DNA from: a virus
Virus record (IMG/VR): IMGVR_UViG_3300042113_000148
Span: 1-38,048 of that record
DNA length: 38,048 nucleotides
Direction: 5' to 3' (one strand)
The notes under the pieces are model-generated. The model saw only the letters and a list, made by a program, of their open reading frames with translations. It did no database searches and was not told the DNA's origin. Shown here piece by piece: positions 4,102 to 36,816 of this stretch. How positions within the stretch are numbered: the first letter of the stretch is position 1; every line of letters starts with the position of its first letter. The position numbers and the translations under genes were made by a program.

Positions 4102-4408
4102 TAAACAGCCCTATGTTTTAATTGGGCTATACGAATCCCTTTATAGGGAGAAGTATGGAAAAAAGCCACGCCTAAATAAATTTCGTGAGAAGTGGGCTAT
4201 GCAAGATGTCATAGATAGTGTAGGATATGATCGTGCTGTAGAACTATTACAGTACTATTTTAGAACCAGCAAGTCTGGGCATCCGCTCAGTTTCTTCTTC
4301 TATAATTTTGATAAAATAGATTATTTAAAGAATGAGATTGATAAAGATAAAGAGAATCGTCGCATATTGCGAGAGGCTACAAAGAAGATGGTGGAAGGCG
4401 AAGAGTGA
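4091..4408 (+). CDS. Small protein upstream of the helicase, possible helicase loader
   Basis: This 105-residue basic, mostly helical protein starts with GTG inside the previous gene and ends on a GTGA overlap with the DnaB-type helicase gene. Small genes in this position in phage replication operons often encode loaders or primosome adaptors, but no ATPase or other diagnostic motif is visible, so that role is an inference from context alone. Residues 20-60 contain PRLNKFREKW and a Tyr/Phe-rich stretch. Confidence 0.6.
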   Translation: MANDKQPYVLIGLYESLYREKYGKKPRLNKFREKWAMQDVIDSVGYDRAVELLQYYFRTSKSGHPLSFFFYNFDKIDYLKNEIDKDKENRRILREATKKMVEGEE

Positions 4409-5655
4409 ATACAGAAGCAGAACTAATATCTGCAGTATGCAAAAATAAAGATATAAGCACACTTCTTGCAGACAATGTAGATGATATATTTACATCTCAT
4501 AGAGATATATGGGAAAGCCTAAAGTCATATTATTATAAGTTTAAAGCAGTTCCAGAAGCTGGTGTTCTTATGGAGCGTCATAAAGATTTTGAGCCAGTTA
4601 CCACAAAGGCTGAGACTGGATACTATTTAGATAAGCTCAAGAATGAGTATCTTACAAATAAACTTAAATCTGTAATTATTCAGTCTGGGTCTGCTCTAAA
4701 AGAAGATGCAGCATCTAGAGTTTTAGCAAATATGCAATCCCAACTTGCTAGTCTATCTAAGTTTACCAATAATGTCAGAGATCTAGATGTAGTTGATTTA
4801 CAATCTGCGGAAAACCATTTCTTATCTGTTAAAGAACGTTCTGCGGTTATGGGCGGCAGTCCAGGAATTCTTACTGGGTTTGATGCAATAGATAAAGCAT
4901 ATCCTACTGGTATGGCTCCAGGACATTTAATTGTTGCTATTGGTTGGCCAGGCAAAGGTAAGACGTGGTTTACATCCTATCTTGCATGTAAGGCATGGGA
5001 GCAAGGATTTAAGCCAATGATTATCTCCCTTGAAATGTCACCAGAGAATATGCGTGACCGCATTTACACAATGCTTGGTTCTGGATTATTCCGTGCCAGC
5101 GATTTATCAAAAGGAGATATTAACTTAGATGACTTCAAATCATGGGGCAAGAAAAAATTCGAAGGCAAGAACTCGTTTATTCTGGTTTCTAATGAGGGGA
5201 CAGCAGAGGTCACGCCTGCAACAGTACAAGGAAAGATTGACCAACACAAGCCAGACTTAGTAATTCTTGATTACCACCAGTTGTTTAATGACAATAAGCG
5301 TAGTCATTCTGAAGTTGAGCGTAATAGAAATATTTCTCGTGAGTTTAAGCTTTTGGCAGTAGCAAATAATATTCCAGTAATTGATATTACAGCAGCGACG
5401 GCAGACGATATATCTGATCAAGATGAGCCACCTATGATGTCACAGGTAGCATGGTCTAAAGCAATTGAATATGATGCTGATATGGCTATGGCTATTCACA
5501 GATATCCAGGAACCAATATGATTGAAGTTGTTAGCAGAAAGAATCGTCATGGACAGGACTTTGACTTCTATCTAGATTGGGATATTAATCGTGGTGTTAT
5601 TACTCCGATTTATGAAAACCTTCCAGATATGAAGAATGACACACAAAAGAATTAA
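4405..5655 (+). CDS. dnaB: Replicative DNA helicase, DnaB/RecA-fold
   Basis: The 416-residue protein has an N-terminal helical domain of about 120 residues and a RecA-fold motor. Walker A is GWPGKGKT at residues 180-187, followed by SLEMSPENM in the DnaB helicase H1a region. Walker B is VILDYHQLF near residue 290, and SRKNRHG near residue 380 resembles the arginine-finger region of hexameric helicases. It should unwind DNA ahead of the phage polymerase as a hexamer with the primase encoded downstream. The GTG start overlaps the previous stop, and the end overlaps the next start by 20 bases. Confidence 0.88.
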   Translation: MNTEAELISAVCKNKDISTLLADNVDDIFTSHRDIWESLKSYYYKFKAVPEAGVLMERHKDFEPVTTKAETGYYLDKLKNEYLTNKLKSVIIQSGSALKEDAASRVLANMQSQLASLSKFTNNVRDLDVVDLQSAENHFLSVKERSAVMGGSPGILTGFDAIDKAYPTGMAPGHLIVAIGWPGKGKTWFTSYLACKAWEQGFKPMIISLEMSPENMRDRIYTMLGSGLFRASDLSKGDINLDDFKSWGKKKFEGKNSFILVSNEGTAEVTPATVQGKIDQHKPDLVILDYHQLFNDNKRSHSEVERNRNISREFKLLAVANNIPVIDITAATADDISDQDEPPMMSQVAWSKAIEYDADMAMAIHRYPGTNMIEVVSRKNRHGQDFDFYLDWDINRGVITPIYENLPDMKNDTQKN

Positions 5656-5935
5656 ACGATTTCAGGTTGATGTAGAGTTTAAAGACAATGCTCAGCTCAT
5701 TAGTTTAAGACCGCAGTACGAAAACTTGTTAACTCAAGATATGCGGGGCAAGGGATATATTAGGGTACTTGACATAGATCCAGCTTTTTCGGTAGAATTC
5801 ACAGGCGAGACATGGAAGTTCTTAATGAGCATTCATGGTGTATATATAGGAAAGAAGAAAGCATGGCAATACGAGGGTTGGACTCAAGGAAAATTGATTC
5901 CACGACATATGCCCCAGCACATGTTAAATCGGTAA
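5636..5935 (+). CDS. Small hypothetical protein between helicase and primase
   Basis: The 99-residue product is rich in beta-type residues at the start and basic at the end. ATG 5636 lies inside the helicase gene, and the last 73 bases overlap the primase start, which is a long overlap for this genome. No family is recognised. It is kept as a gene because it fills the gap between helicase and primase in a continuous operon; the C-terminal part might be less constrained. Confidence 0.55.
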   Translation: MTHKRIKRFQVDVEFKDNAQLISLRPQYENLLTQDMRGKGYIRVLDIDPAFSVEFTGETWKFLMSIHGVYIGKKKAWQYEGWTQGKLIPRHMPQHMLNR

Positions 5936-6861
5936 TTAAATCTCTAGGACTTGAAATAGTTGGAGAGACATCTAATGATTTCCTATGCTTCTGCCCATTT
6001 CATTCTAATAGACATACATCAAGTTTTAGCGTAAGTCGTGAAAAGGGCGCATATATTTGTTTTAACCCTGCATGTGGAGAATCTGGAACTTTAACTGAAT
6101 TAATTAAAAAGATTTTAAATAAGAACGAGTTTGAGTCTATTAGGTATATTGCTGCACGTGAAGCAGAGTCCGTAGAAAATTTTGACGAAGTACTAAAAGA
6201 AATGTTTGAAGATAAACCAGATTTTGTAGAATTTCCACAAAAAACTTTGGATGATCTATATAATAATCTAGGCTCAAATCCACATGCTCAAGAATACTTT
6301 AGACATCGTGGAATAAATGATGAGTCTATGCAATATTTTAAATTAGGTTATTCTGCCAATATGGGAATGGTTATTGTTCCAGTACATAGCCCAGATGGGC
6401 TACCTGTAGGATTAGTTGGTAGATCTATATCCGAAAAGAAATTTAAGAATAGTACAAATTTGCCACGTAGTAAAACTATGTTTAATATTCACCGTGCTAA
6501 AAAAATTGGTGGCCAAGTTATAATAGTAGAGTCAACATTTGACGCTATCCGTGTTCATCAAGCTGGATTTCCAAACGTTGTGGCAACTCTGGGCGGTCAT
6601 ATATCACATGACAATATAAATTTATTAAATAGATATTTTAATAGAATAATTATTATGACAGATGCAGACCAGGCGGGTAGAGAATTAGGAATGAATATTG
6701 CTAATAAATTAAGAAATAAAGATATCTTGTGGGCTTCGCATAGTTATGGTAAGATATATCCTAACAATGCAAAAGATGCAGGTGACATGACCGATCAAGA
6801 AATTGCCACATGCATTAAAAGTGCTGTATCCGACATCGAATACAGAACCTGGAATCCATGA
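5863..6861 (+). CDS. DnaG-type DNA primase (zinc finger plus Toprim)
   Basis: From ATG 5863 the protein has 332 residues. The zinc-binding part has CPFH at 44-47 and CFNPAC near 66-71, an expanded spacing compared with the usual CFGC of CHC2 primases. The Toprim domain shows the acidic residue in VIIVESTFDA and DADQAGRE near residue 270, the metal site for RNA primer synthesis. At about 330 residues it is shorter than cellular DnaG and appears to lack the C-terminal helicase-binding domain. ATG 5863, preceded by AGGAAAG, is preferred to the in-frame ATG 5812, which gives a non-domain extension. Confidence 0.87.
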   Translation: MAIRGLDSRKIDSTTYAPAHVKSVIKSLGLEIVGETSNDFLCFCPFHSNRHTSSFSVSREKGAYICFNPACGESGTLTELIKKILNKNEFESIRYIAAREAESVENFDEVLKEMFEDKPDFVEFPQKTLDDLYNNLGSNPHAQEYFRHRGINDESMQYFKLGYSANMGMVIVPVHSPDGLPVGLVGRSISEKKFKNSTNLPRSKTMFNIHRAKKIGGQVIIVESTFDAIRVHQAGFPNVVATLGGHISHDNINLLNRYFNRIIIMTDADQAGRELGMNIANKLRNKDILWASHSYGKIYPNNAKDAGDMTDQEIATCIKSAVSDIEYRTWNP

Positions 6862-6867
6862 TATAAT
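6859..6867 (+). promoter_or_regulatory. Extended -10 promoter TGATATAAT
   Basis: TG at 6859-6860, one base, then TATAAT at 6862-6867, overlapping the primase stop codon. No good -35 box is seen, which is usual for extended -10 promoters. Predicted start is near 6874, ahead of the single-stranded DNA-binding protein gene. Confidence 0.6.
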
Positions 6868-6877
6868 GAAAAATACA

Positions 6878-6894
6878 GACGGATCTATACCGTC
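6878..6894 (+). promoter_or_regulatory. 5' stem-loop in the leader of the SSB gene
   Basis: GACGG (6878-6882) pairs with CCGTC (6890-6894) across a seven-base loop, about four bases after the predicted transcription start and before the AAAGGAG ribosome site. It may stabilise the mRNA or be a site of autogenous control. Confidence 0.45.
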
Positions 6895-6915
6895 AACTAT
6901 AAAGGAGAAATATAA

Positions 6916-7584
6916 ATGGGTATCGTAAAAGGACTAAAAGGCTTAAACGCAGTAATGGATAAGCCACAATCAAGTTCAGACGGAACAAAAGGTCGTTGGG
7001 TTAAACTAGAAGATGGCGAAAGCGTAAAGATTCGTTTTCTTCAAGAATTAGATCCAGACTCACCTTCATATAATGAAAAGCTTGGACTGGGCTTTATTGC
7101 AGTCGAACATACAAATCCAAAAGATTATCGCCGTAAGGCTCTATGCTCTATGGATGATCAAGGTAAGTGCTTTGGTTGTGAGCAACATCGCAAGGATTAT
7201 AAAGCAGGTTGGAAGGGTCGTTCACGTCTCTATATCAATGTGCTAGTTGATGATGGTAAGGAAGATCCATATGTAGCAATTCTTTCACAAGGTTCTAGCG
7301 GTAAGACCGTTACACCTACACTTATTGAATACGCAGGCGAGATGGGTTCAATTACAAATCTTATGTGGCGTATCAAGCGTTCTGGGACAAAGACAGACAC
7401 GAGTTATACAATTATTCCTCTTGCTAAAGATGAAGCACCATTTGATGCATCATCTCTTGAGTTATATAAACTTGAAGAGTCAGCAGTTCGTGACCTACCA
7501 TATACAGAACAAGAAGCCTTCTTCAACGGTGAGGGTGGCAATTCAGAGTCAGATTCATCTACCAGCAGCAGCTTAGACTGGTAA
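6916..7584 (+). CDS. ssb: Single-stranded DNA-binding protein, gp32-like
   Basis: The 222-residue protein resembles phage gp32-type single-stranded DNA-binding proteins. It has an N-terminal segment with KGRWVKL and a beta-rich core, an internal knuckle CSMDDQGKCFGCEQH near residues 75-90 that could hold zinc, and a low-complexity acidic Ser-rich tail from about 208 that ends in LDW. Such tails recruit replication partners. It would coat exposed DNA for the polymerase and RecA-like protein. AAAGGAG precedes ATG. Its own promoter and leader hairpin, and its place directly before the polymerase gene, fit high expression. Confidence 0.78.
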   Translation: MGIVKGLKGLNAVMDKPQSSSDGTKGRWVKLEDGESVKIRFLQELDPDSPSYNEKLGLGFIAVEHTNPKDYRRKALCSMDDQGKCFGCEQHRKDYKAGWKGRSRLYINVLVDDGKEDPYVAILSQGSSGKTVTPTLIEYAGEMGSITNLMWRIKRSGTKTDTSYTIIPLAKDEAPFDASSLELYKLEESAVRDLPYTEQEAFFNGEGGNSESDSSTSSSLDW

Positions 7585-7608
7585 TATCTAATTAAAGGCG
7601 GAGAGTTA

Positions 7609-10600
7609 ATGTCATTTACACACTTACATGTGCATTCATATTATTCTCTTATGGATGGGCTTAACTCTCCAGCCGAATTAGCTCAGGCAGCAAAAGATGC
7701 TGGTCAAACAGCATTAGCAATAACTGATCACGGCACACTTGCTTCACATCGTGAAATGCAAATAGCGTGTAAAGAAATTGGAATAAAGCCAATACTTGGA
7801 GTAGAAGCATATATATCTCCTACAGATAGGTTTGATCGTTCTTCTAAAACAGATAAAAGTATTCAGGCATACAATCATATTATATTGTTGGCTAAAAATC
7901 AGAACGGCTTAAACAATATTCATGCATTACAGGAGTTGGCTTGGAACGAAGGGTTTTACCATAAGCCACGCATTGATAGGGAGATACTTAAAGAATATGC
8001 AAAAGATATTATTGTACTTTCTGGATGCCTTAATGGGATTATTAGTAAAGCTATTGAACGTAAGGAATTCTCAGAAGCAAAACTCATACTCAAAGATTTT
8101 AAACAAACTTTTGGCAAAGACTTTTACATTGAAGTACAATCTCATAACCCGAAAGAAATAAACGAAAAATTATTAGAACTAGCAGATGAATTAGAAATAA
8201 AGGCGGTAGCAACAGGCGATGCCCATTTTGCCAAAGGTGAAGATAAAGTATTAGAAGAAGCCATGCTTATTTTGTCGACAAATCCGAAGGCTGACAAAGA
8301 AGCAGATTTTGATATGTCTAGAAATATGAAAGATATGCTAGATAGATTTAATTATTTATATCCTGATAGAAAAATATCCTTTCAGGACTATAATTTATTT
8401 ATTCAGACCCGCCAAGAAATTGAAGATGATTTTAAAAAGGCTGGCATAAATAGAACAGATATATTTGATAATACTATGGAGATAGCCTCTAAAATTGCAG
8501 AATACGATTTTTACAGGGGTTTAGACCTTCTCCCAGTCCCTAAGACCAATGCTGACCAAAAACTGGCTGAGATGGCCTTTGAAGGCCTAGAAAGGCTACG
8601 CCTGACAGATGCATGGCTAGGAAATGATATATATGAGCAAAGGCTTGACGAAGAATTATCTGTAATTAGAGATAAGGGATTTGCATCCTATTTCTTGGTT
8701 GTTGCAGATATGATTAGCTGGGCTAAGAGCCAAAATATTATGGTTGGTCCTGGGCGTGGTTCTGCCGCAGGTTCTTTAATTTGTTACTTATTAGGAATTA
8801 CGGATGTAGATCCAATTGAATATGATCTTCTATTTTTCCGATTTATTAACCCTGAACGTAATGACTTCCCTGATATTGATACGGATTTTGAGGACCGCCG
8901 CCGTAAAGAAGTTAAAGATTATTTAAAAAAGAAGTTTAAGCATGTCGCATCTATTTCTACATTTACTTATTTTAAAGATAAGGGTGTAGTTCGTGATGCT
9001 GCCAGAGTATTTATGGTTCCGCTAGGAGAAGTTAACAAAGCATTAAAGCAGGTAGACACTTTCGAAGACTATCTTGAGTCTCCAAATACTAAAGAATTTA
9101 GAACTAAATATCCAGAAGTAACTTGGTTGGCAGAAAGACTTCGTGGAAAAATTAGAAGCGTTGGAGTTCATGCTGCTGGAGTTGTTGTTGCTAAAGATGA
9201 TATTAGAAAATATGCCCCTATAGAATCTCGTGAAGATGCACAGGATAAGGTTTCTGGAAGAATTCCAGTTGTTGCATATGATATGGATACGGTAGCAGAT
9301 ATTGGTCTGATAAAGCTTGACGCTTTGGGCCTAAAGACCTTGTCTGTTATTTCAGATACATTAAAGTCTATTAAAGAAAGACATAAAAAAGAAATTGTTT
9401 TATCTGAAATTACTTTAGATGATCCTAAAGTTTATTCTATGTTAAGCGAAGGATATACTAAAGGAGTATTTCAAGCTGAAGCAACTCCATATACAAATCT
9501 TCTTATGAAGATGGGAGTCAGCACGTTTGAAGATTTGGCCGCATCAAATGCTTTGGTTAGGCCAGGAGCAATGAATACTGTAGGTGCTTCTTACATTAAT
9601 CGTAAGCATGGAAGAGAAGCAGTTCAGTATGTACACAATATAATGAAGCCATTTACAGAAAATACATATGGTGTAATTATTTATCAGGAACAGGTTATGC
9701 AGGCTTGCGTACACCTTGGAGGAATGACTTGGTCAGAAGCCGATAAAGTCCGTAAGATTATTGGAAAGAAAAAAGATGCAAAAGAATTCGATCAATTCAA
9801 AGATCAGTTTATTACTGGTGCTGAGAAGCATATTAGCAAAAAACAAGCCCAGCACCTCTGGCATGACTTCGAAGCACATGCGGGATACTCGTTCAATCGC
9901 TCTCATGCTGTCGCTTACTCTATGCTTTCTTATTTTACCGCTTGGCTTAAGTTTTATTATCCTTTGGAATTTCTTTTCTCCCTTCTTAAAAACGAAGGAA
10001 ATAAAGATACAAGAACAGAATACCTCATTGAAGCAAAAAGACTAGGCCTAAGAGTTAAACTTCCACACGTAAATGAGTCTGATGTTAATTTTTCTTTAAA
10101 AGAAGACGCAATAGTATTTGGATTAGCAGAAGTTAAATTTATTTCTGATAGCATTGCAAATAAATTAATAGAGCAAAGACCATTTAAAAACTATAAAGAT
10201 TTAATTGATAAGTCTTCTAAAAAGGGAAGCGGAATAAATAGTCGTGCAATTGCTGCATTAAACTCAATTGGCGGTGCAGCATTTGATGACAATCCAAGAC
10301 GTGGTAACGAAAAAGATAATTATTATGAATATTTAGGTATACCTACATTTAATTTAGATTTGCCCCCACGCATTAAAGCTCAGGCTAGACCAATTGAAGA
10401 GTTTGATGAACTAGGCTCCTTTGTTATGTTTGGTATGGTTAAAAATATTAAACGTGGAACTGGATGGGCAAGAGTTGAGTTAGTTGATGAGACAGGATCA
10501 ATAGGCTTGTTCCATAATGAGCAAACACAAATTGAAACAAATCAAATGTATTTTGTTTTAGTTGGAGACAATAGAATTGCTAGATATATAAAGGTTAGCG

Positions 10601-10887
10601 ATATTAATCCAGATTCAAAGGATTTGTTTGTTGACTACCTATATAGAAAGCAGTACGATCTTGCGGATAACGAATATATTGTGGTAAACTTTACACCTTA
10701 CAAAACTAAAGCTGGCAAAATGATGGCCCATATTGTAATGTCCGATAAAGATAAAAATTTAACTAGAGCAATTGCTTTTCCAACAATGTATAAAATAGCT
10801 TTAGCTAAAATGCGTGAAGGAATGAAGTGTCAAGTTAAATTAGCGAAGCTTGATGATGGAACTTTAAATGTTAAGGAGATAAGATGA
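7609..10887 (+). CDS. dnaE: DNA polymerase III alpha subunit (DnaE type)
   Basis: The 1092-residue protein has a PHP domain at the N-terminus (HLHVHSYYSLMDG, ITDHGTLA), the polymerase core with PDIDTDF near residue 421 and IKLDALGLKTL near 565 that supply the catalytic aspartates, then helix-hairpin-helix and OB-type C-terminal parts. It is near the usual length of DnaE. No DnaQ-type exonuclease is fused, so proofreading would depend on the PHP domain or another protein. It uses the ribosome site GGCGGAGAG and ends with an ATGA overlap to the next gene. It is the phage replicative polymerase. Confidence 0.93.
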   Translation: MSFTHLHVHSYYSLMDGLNSPAELAQAAKDAGQTALAITDHGTLASHREMQIACKEIGIKPILGVEAYISPTDRFDRSSKTDKSIQAYNHIILLAKNQNGLNNIHALQELAWNEGFYHKPRIDREILKEYAKDIIVLSGCLNGIISKAIERKEFSEAKLILKDFKQTFGKDFYIEVQSHNPKEINEKLLELADELEIKAVATGDAHFAKGEDKVLEEAMLILSTNPKADKEADFDMSRNMKDMLDRFNYLYPDRKISFQDYNLFIQTRQEIEDDFKKAGINRTDIFDNTMEIASKIAEYDFYRGLDLLPVPKTNADQKLAEMAFEGLERLRLTDAWLGNDIYEQRLDEELSVIRDKGFASYFLVVADMISWAKSQNIMVGPGRGSAAGSLICYLLGITDVDPIEYDLLFFRFINPERNDFPDIDTDFEDRRRKEVKDYLKKKFKHVASISTFTYFKDKGVVRDAARVFMVPLGEVNKALKQVDTFEDYLESPNTKEFRTKYPEVTWLAERLRGKIRSVGVHAAGVVVAKDDIRKYAPIESREDAQDKVSGRIPVVAYDMDTVADIGLIKLDALGLKTLSVISDTLKSIKERHKKEIVLSEITLDDPKVYSMLSEGYTKGVFQAEATPYTNLLMKMGVSTFEDLAASNALVRPGAMNTVGASYINRKHGREAVQYVHNIMKPFTENTYGVIIYQEQVMQACVHLGGMTWSEADKVRKIIGKKKDAKEFDQFKDQFITGAEKHISKKQAQHLWHDFEAHAGYSFNRSHAVAYSMLSYFTAWLKFYYPLEFLFSLLKNEGNKDTRTEYLIEAKRLGLRVKLPHVNESDVNFSLKEDAIVFGLAEVKFISDSIANKLIEQRPFKNYKDLIDKSSKKGSGINSRAIAALNSIGGAAFDDNPRRGNEKDNYYEYLGIPTFNLDLPPRIKAQARPIEEFDELGSFVMFGMVKNIKRGTGWARVELVDETGSIGLFHNEQTQIETNQMYFVLVGDNRIARYIKVSDINPDSKDLFVDYLYRKQYDLADNEYIVVNFTPYKTKAGKMMAHIVMSDKDKNLTRAIAFPTMYKIALAKMREGMKCQVKLAKLDDGTLNVKEIR

Positions 10888-34860: not shown

Positions 34861-35024
34861 CCGAATATTGCGACCATGTCTACCAATATTTAAATGCTGA
34901 TATCTGCCCTAAATGTGGCGAAGTCACCCATGAAATGAATTGGGCGGAACAGAATAAAATTCAGAAACAATGGCTAAAGGATAATCCTAATGCCTGGAAA
35001 GAAGTAGGATGGTGGAGTATATGA
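34857..35024 (+). CDS. Small zinc-finger protein
   Basis: A 55-residue frame from ATG 34857 to TGA 35022-35024. It has CDHVYQYLNADICPKCGEVTH, giving Cys/His-type zinc ligands, and a Trp-rich basic C-terminus. It overlaps both the nuclease and SpeD genes by four bases. Function unknown. Confidence 0.66.
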   Translation: MTEYCDHVYQYLNADICPKCGEVTHEMNWAEQNKIQKQWLKDNPNAWKEVGWWSI

Positions 35025-35545
35025 TTTACCATAAGCACTTATTGGTAAATGCTAAAATAAGTAATCCAGTACAATCAGAGGCTCAGGGAATTGCCTTTTT
35101 GACCAATCTGGTAAATAAGATCGACATGAAAATAATTAAGGGTCCATTTGCATCCTATGTAAATAAGGAAGGCAATAGAGGTCTTACAGGGGTAGTTATG
35201 ATTGAGACCAGTCATATCGCCTTTCATATATGGGATGAGCTTAGACCAGGTTTAATTCAATTTGATCTCTATACTTGTGGTCAACTAGAATTAGATAAGG
35301 TTATATCTATATTTAAAGATACATTTGAAGTAGTCGAATATGACTATGTTCTCTTTGATAGGGAGAATGGATTTGTTGTAGAACAATCAGGGCGGGAGTT
35401 CAATGGAGTAATCCATAACCAATATCCCCAAGGTAAAGATGTACCCAAAGAGATGTTAGATCCAAATATAGGTGTATTCTTTGGAAATAAGACCAAAGCA
35501 GAGCAAGACGCTATATGGTCATCTCAAATTTCATTTGAAGAGTAG
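35021..35545 (+). CDS. speD: S-adenosylmethionine decarboxylase (SpeD type)
   Basis: From ATG 35021 the protein has 174 residues. GLTGVVMIETSHIAFHIWDE holds the self-cleaving Ser64 and His69, and FDLYTCG holds Cys86; these match the cleavage and catalytic residues of bacterial SpeD enzymes. The pyruvoyl enzyme makes decarboxylated SAM for spermidine synthesis. It is longer than typical class 1b SpeD, with an extra C-terminal segment of about 45 residues. No spermidine synthase is seen in the window. ATG 35021 overlaps the preceding stop; an in-frame GTG at 35009 is less likely. Confidence 0.85.
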   Translation: MIYHKHLLVNAKISNPVQSEAQGIAFLTNLVNKIDMKIIKGPFASYVNKEGNRGLTGVVMIETSHIAFHIWDELRPGLIQFDLYTCGQLELDKVISIFKDTFEVVEYDYVLFDRENGFVVEQSGREFNGVIHNQYPQGKDVPKEMLDPNIGVFFGNKTKAEQDAIWSSQISFEE

Positions 35546-36084
35546 CTAATACTTTTCCTACCCCCTCCCATTTTCTCCTCTCTAATAGCCTTATACGGCT
35601 TATTTGATGGAGTAAAGTGGAGCATTGTGGAGTAAAATGGCTATTAATTTACTATCAATTATTATTAATATTTATATTTAGATATATATGTGTAATTGGG
35701 CCATCTCAATATTTAAGACGTAATCCCAATTTGCAGCATATTTAATTCATATTGTCAATACTTTCTGGGAAATTTGTCTATATGTCGTAAATGTCCGATT
35801 TGTCCCACATTCTGGGGCTATAAATATATCCCCGTAAACGGGAAAATTTGCCCACAATTTTGGGAGATTTTGATCTATTTGTATAACATTTTGTTATATT
35901 CTATATACATTTAATTAAATAATTATACATTCTGATCTAATTTTCCCAGATTTTCTGGGACATTTTAATATGCTCCGTAAAAACGAAATAAGGCCCTCAA
36001 TTTTTCCACAAAAATATCCACAGATGTGGATAACTTTATGTTACCTCTGGATAACCTGTGGATATAAATGTATATTAGATTAGT
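35546..36084. other. Noncoding AT-rich region between convergent gene sets
   Basis: About 540 bases lack a gene on either strand. From left to right it holds a pyrimidine tract (35552-35583), TAATAGCC/GGCTATTA arms (35583-35590, 35639-35646) around two direct repeats TGGAGTAAA-TGG (35608-35620, 35628-35640), a long AT-rich stretch, four CGTAA pentamers (35719, 35786, 35833, 35976), a TCCCAG/CTGGGA hairpin (35944-35960), and the DnaA-box cluster. It has the composition expected of a replication origin. Confidence 0.75.
36002..36065. other. Replication-origin candidate: cluster of five DnaA-box-like 9-mers
   Basis: Within 64 bases there are TTTTCCACA (36002-36010), ATATCCACA (36014-36022), TGTGGATAA (36025-36033, an exact reverse match to TTATCCACA), TCTGGATAA (36046-36054, one base from consensus) and TGTGGATAT (36057-36065). 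The first two point right, the other three left; boxes two and three form a palindrome TATCCACA-GA-TGTGGATA. This density is not expected by chance, and the AT-rich stretch beside it could unwind. Confidence 0.72.
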
Positions 36085-36297
36085 TTAAGCTATTTGTTTT
36101 CTTCTAGCTGATTTACTTGATACTTGGGCAAGACCATATTTCCGCCGCCGCTTTAATAATTGAGAATTAGATGTAGCTTTTGATATAGATCTTAGATTAG
36201 TTATATTACCTATACCTTTACGTAGATCTGCTGGTAGCGTTCTTTCGAACGCCGCCAGTTGTCTACAATTAGGGAAGCCTGATGTGTTTGAACTCAT
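36085..36297 (-). CDS. Small basic hypothetical protein
   Basis: The 70-residue protein is rich in Lys, Arg and Ser toward the end (LLKRRRKYGLAQVSSKSARRKQ), as expected for a nucleic-acid-binding tail. Its ATG lies inside the end of the neighbouring gene (29-base overlap). It is the last minus-strand gene before the origin candidate. Function unknown. Confidence 0.58.
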   Translation of the reverse strand: MSSNTSGFPNCRQLAAFERTLPADLRKGIGNITNLRSISKATSNSQLLKRRRKYGLAQVSSKSARRKQIA

Positions 36298-36637: not shown

Positions 36638-36784
36638 TTACTTCTGAGCTGTCTTTACTTCAGCGGTGAACTTAATGCCATTCTTTTCCGCCTCTGACAG
36701 AGCCTGCTTAGCTGCAGCTGAGAATCGGCCACGGCGGCCAACAGTAATTCCCTTTGAAGCTAGATATTCACGCTTTGTTGTCAT
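36638..36784 (-). CDS. Mini-Lsr2-like DNA-binding protein
   Basis: A 48-residue minus-strand frame from ATG 36784-36782 to TAA 36640-36638, with AAAGGA nine bases upstream. It reads REYLASKGITVGRRGRFSAA then AKQALSEA, which follows the pattern of the Lsr2 C-terminal domain: helix, G-x-x-V, the R-G-R minor-groove contact, helix. The Lsr2 oligomerisation domain is missing. Such a stand-alone domain could compete with host Lsr2 for AT-rich DNA, or bind the nearby origin region. It has its own strong promoter and terminator, so it forms a single-gene unit. Confidence 0.72.
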   Translation of the reverse strand: MTTKREYLASKGITVGRRGRFSAAAKQALSEAEKNGIKFTAEVKTAQK

Positions 36785-36816
36785 TTGATTTGATCCTTTC
36801 ATGATCGGTTATATAT

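Follow-up and report, generated by a model that had tools for sequence, protein, structure and literature searches.

The 9-mer TTATCCACA is a high-affinity DnaA box in several bacteria, and at E. coli asnC a complex of DnaA with its box can block RNA polymerase. Sites for host DnaA have been described in a phage: the ori region of phage lambda has DnaA boxes near a phage promoter, protected by DnaA in footprinting (PMC3985674). The best DnaA box of Streptomyces is TTGTCCACA (PMC4285127). A limited literature search found no report of DnaA boxes in lytic actinophages. Like lambda, the phage DNA considered here carries sites for host DnaA, although these are predicted from sequence; unlike lambda, which has its own O initiator and origin region, it has no identified initiator, and its array of boxes is placed at the end of an operon. 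Chromosomal clusters at oriC and upstream of dnaA, for example in Rubrobacteraceae contigs, resemble the phage array in having the same exact boxes in a compact, 12-bp right-right-left arrangement. Unlike them, the phage array is flanked by convergent operons, includes a fourth box that is inverted and outermost, has the potential to fold into a terminator and has no dnaA nearby. The three-box geometry occurs at 75 bacterial loci, 17 of which have an ORF with a DnaA signature 1.4-2.5 kb away. A group of viruses of actinobacteria carries a tight DnaA-box array through which they may read host DnaA, and in the DNA analyzed here the array would double as a transcription stop signal.

That DNA, the window, comprises the 38,048 nucleotides of IMG/VR virus record IMGVR_UViG_3300042113_000148 and is, on its sequence, a fragment of a Stanwilliamsviridae-like actinophage. 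Its closest relatives in culture, judged by terminase and polymerase, are Streptomyces phages of the Stanwilliamsviridae (TerL about 60-63% and DnaE about 58% identity), and 22.5 kb of the window, compared with phage records by megablast, gave no match. A plus-strand replication gene block (4405-10887) runs from a DnaB-type helicase (4405-5655) through a primase (5812-6861) and an SSB (6916-7584) to a DnaE-type polymerase (7609-10887), all on the plus strand, and this 38-kb virus record also encodes RecA and terminase. A preliminary description had named the helicase, primase and polymerase and had seen no DnaA or initiator; all three proteins were found, and the DnaA C-terminal domain is absent from all 22 records searched (the window and 21 related records). 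Rfam searches of the window and its relatives returned nothing but tRNAs at gathering scores. The last rightward ORF was identified from its protein as SpeD, S-adenosylmethionine decarboxylase (35009-35545, plus strand), and the leftward set, which includes a short Lsr2-like protein (36638-36802, minus strand), ends with the ORF at 36085-36297 (minus strand). Between them lies the gap of the convergent gene sets (35546-36084), gene-free and AT-rich in part as first described, its flanking ORFs ending at 35545 and 36085 in a mechanical ORF call in which some short ORFs may be spurious. Four CGTAA sites stand on the plus strand (35719, 35786, 35833 and 35976), three of them CGTAAA; such modules recur beside arrays in relatives, and also in relatives that have no boxes.

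Within 64 bp of this gap (36002-36065) are five 9-mers with at most one mismatch to TTATCCACA, one of them exact. Box 1 (TTTTCCACA, 36002-36010) and box 2 (ATATCCACA, 36014-36022, 12 bp after box 1) are on the plus strand, and box 3, an exact TTATCCACA (36025-36033), is on the minus strand; the register of all three is kept in relatives. Box 5 (ATATCCACA, 36057-36065, minus strand), about 20 bp from the stop of the last leftward ORF, corresponds to the outer inverted box that relatives conserve. Box 4 (TTATCCAGA, 36046-36054, minus strand), degenerate yet within one mismatch, falls between boxes 3 and 5, which are 32 bp apart here; relatives usually have a 12-bp step at this place. The inner inverted pair gives the palindrome TATCCACA-GA-TGTGGATA (36015-36032). 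How unusual is such a cluster? Nowhere else in the window is there a cluster of at least three sites with at most one mismatch, 200 copies generated from it by a first-order Markov model contained four such clusters in total, and 60 shuffled 9-mers of the same composition reached a maximum of 2 sites per 70 bp of the window versus 5 for TTATCCACA. The site count across the whole window at up to two mismatches is not raised (170 versus 161.5 expected); the signal of the array is clustering, not site number. In relatives, exact TTATCCACA is over-represented, as in G038, with 7 copies where shuffled 9-mers average 1.0. The five boxes and the palindrome of the preliminary description are thus real features at the places given there, and the 9-mers close to TTATCCACA are clustered beyond chance, as in a DnaA-box cluster.

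The same inner inverted pair, followed by five T, builds a terminator-like hairpin on the minus strand (TATCCACATCTGTGGATA then TTTTT, 36010-36032), for which a 41-nt fold has -15.3 kcal/mol and a z of -5.0. A stem-loop that runs into a row of T on the leftward strand, some 20 bp after the last leftward ORF has ended, has the form and position of an intrinsic terminator. In the subgroups of relatives that have a T-run, the array is about 12-28 bp beyond the point at which the final leftward ORF ends; arrays that have no T-run were found in L271, L290, L291, L294 and L296 and, by sequence reading, in L054, L055 and the streptophages. At the homologous spot, G020 has a leftward-strand terminator, confirmed by a scan, and G024, G010 and G011 have leftward-strand hairpins with T-runs, judged by eye, the gaps of the last two closely resembling each other; no terminator hairpin is evident in the G014 gap. 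A hairpin as the sole explanation of the boxes was rejected on account of direct-repeat box pairs and of arrays without a T-run.

Related contigs arrange the array as two right-pointing followed by two left-pointing boxes in a 12-bp register, a four-box pattern found in 26 viral stretches (17 groups once near-identical sequences are pooled), most of which have rightward ORFs to the left of the array and leftward ORFs to its right. Searching with the three-box pattern retrieved 53 viral stretches versus none for a scrambled control, and a version of the array built from TTGTCCACA had no match in viral contigs. Steps between boxes in 15 freshwater arrays are mostly 12 bp, and the window's array, with its extra degenerate box, is a divergent member. 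The array is often present at loci that have similar SpeD genes or that share a 22-bp piece of it. An expectation attached to the cluster when it was first described, that close relatives would keep it at the same place, was not borne out: the geometry is fixed in many relatives, but among nine same-group records (the window itself or a DnaE relative of 76-85% identity, each with an identified convergence gap) the array is present at the gap in four (the window, G038, G028 and, in degenerate form, G008) and absent from five (G014, G020, G024, G010 and G011), counts that come from relatives picked by the author and are not an unbiased survey. Boxes do occur elsewhere in some of these five, as pairs in G020, one pair in G010 and a triple in G011, and the array scans made gave no box array in G014 or G024; many records are metagenomic fragments, whose missing sequence could hide boxes elsewhere, but not at the gap. 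The three-box array also occurs in viral contigs of 26%-66% GC (for example L267, L279, L289 and L308), several of them without similarity to the window's phage group in the proteins compared.

Relatives have additional box pairs upstream of leftward genes, promoter-type sites that are known from relatives only, the window stopping short of them. Upstream of a DUF932 gene the pair is inverted in G038, G006, G037, G008 and G020 and direct in G030, G027, G016, G036 and G028, and because the same pair takes both orientations, the conserved unit is the 9-mer and not one hairpin. A GC-rich hairpin usually comes before this pair, and a palindrome resembling TGTGA-N6-TCACA after it. Another small leftward gene has a second box site in front of it, and three or four boxes make up a third site. 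In several freshwater genomes these palindromes outnumber most of the controls with other spacings, although a 4-bp spacing is raised too. CRP-like TGTGA-N6-TCACA palindromes recur upstream of leftward genes in relatives (for example L087 at 19386, L088 at 1289 and 3979), several of them beside box pairs; the window has a single match, with one mismatch, at 7177. In L294 (3987-4016, minus strand) a 12-of-12 match to a sigma-70 promoter lies in the convergent gap, facing the rightward genes.

Phages isolated on Streptomyces have three-box arrays in gaps without annotated genes. The Stanwilliamsviridae among them (BillNye, Wakanda, Samisti12 and others) are like the window in having related replication and terminase proteins and an array in an unannotated gap, which is about 1-1.4 kb long in the three named, and the BillNye region has DNA-level matches in 35 phage records. 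They are unlike the window in host and GC content and in having the array off the terminator, as in BillNye and in Samisti12, where the scanned terminators are hundreds of bases away. Position 3 of the streptophage boxes is A in 23 of 27, T in 4 and never G, a mismatch with the Streptomyces optimum that is the main unexplained point. In Samisti12 (L120, 22951-23045) repeated gene coordinates imply a terminal repeat that starts about 50 bp beyond the array's last box; a packaging-site reading is not general, the repeat being about 5 kb off in BillNye.

What might such an array do? Since the boxes are real, clustered and conserved in geometry and the phages encode no recognizable DnaA, host DnaA is the natural candidate, and service to host DnaA is probably the best reading of them. 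The explanation that we favor, tentatively and with somewhat less than even confidence, is a host-DnaA-binding array fused to the terminator of the leftward operon, linking phage transcription to host DnaA. Two right-pointing and then left-pointing boxes in a register of about 12 bp are placed at the 3' end of that operon; host DnaA would bind them, as is suggested by phages without recognizable DnaA having a box of high affinity in several bacteria, and bound DnaA and the hairpin would act jointly where leftward transcription ends. In relatives, box pairs upstream of leftward genes would let the level or state of host DnaA influence their transcription, and phage replication might nucleate at the same array. 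Clustering beyond chance, the 12-bp four-box pattern, the closeness of the array to the leftward ORF end, the terminators at homologous spots, the 9-mer as the conserved unit, the arrays that have no T-run, the shared geometry at bacterial loci and the lack of a DnaA domain in the 22 records are consistent with this explanation; the streptophage arrays off terminators, the streptophage position 3 that is never G, the lack of viral matches to a TTGTCCACA array, and G014 and G024, where scans gave no array, argue against it. That host DnaA is, across this actinophage group, a switch for transcription and possibly replication, acting through the terminator-fused array and the upstream pairs so that expression follows the host's initiation state, is conceivable but doubtful. 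Were host DnaA to bind, phage expression or replication would be tied to the host replication initiator by cis-acting DNA alone, which would bear on how replication starts in phages that encode DnaB, primase and DnaE and in which no initiator has been identified.

The main rival, which we consider rather unlikely though it keeps substantial weight, makes the array the phage replication origin, at which host DnaA on the opposed half-arrays would melt AT-rich DNA and help to load the phage helicase. Opposed head-to-tail boxes in helical register, AT-rich stretches in the window's gap, the gap arrays of BillNye, Wakanda and Samisti12 with the 35 matching records, and the lack of an encoded DnaA domain all suit an origin, and the preliminary description had proposed one, opened by recruited host DnaA. 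That proposal is only partly supported. GC skew does switch sign at the array, as predicted, but from positive to negative, a cumulative maximum, which by bacterial convention is the sign of a terminus and not of an origin; the switch follows gene direction, and GC skew was rejected as origin evidence on both grounds. In G038 the cumulative curve has its local minimum about 12-14 kb from the array, close to a different box site, and the gap has no AT-rich stretches at the threshold used for the window. Nor does an origin sit well with the five array-less gaps, with a terminator filling the spot in relatives, or with boxes that here form a hairpin, and it leaves the box pairs upstream of genes unexplained.

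Streptophage boxes avoid G at position 3, where Streptomyces DnaA prefers it, and CGTAA/TTACG motifs accompany the boxes; both could instead mean that the binder is not DnaA but another host protein, or one encoded by the phage, whose site is similar. We judge this improbable: no candidate phage protein has been identified, and the same array turns up close to dnaA-type ORFs in actinobacterial contigs, those of Rubrobacteraceae among them, and in viral contigs that differ widely in GC content. A plain intrinsic terminator whose stem resembles DnaA boxes by chance would account for the hairpin with its T-run next to the final leftward gene and for other hairpins at the same spot in relatives, but not for the conserved outer boxes and 12-bp register, the arrays without a T-run, the direct-repeat pairs or the excess of exact TTATCCACA in G038, and is very unlikely. 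Least probable is that the array serves as a decoy, titrating host DnaA and so halting host replication: there are several box sites in one genome, but only about a dozen boxes across the identified sites of G038, and titration needs no fixed geometry or placement. The favored reading, a terminator-fused array for host DnaA, is open to experiment, the three-box arrays of Streptomyces phage isolates making binding, transcript ends and replication start testable in culture.

The non-coding DNA of one of these isolates has a further feature. The Streptomyces tectivirus Forthebois and the tailed phage BillNye have about 96 bp in common at 80.6% identity (L109, 19570-19665; L110, 3501-3598); the BillNye part, in a non-coding region, has no Rfam match, and the Forthebois part is intergenic DNA.
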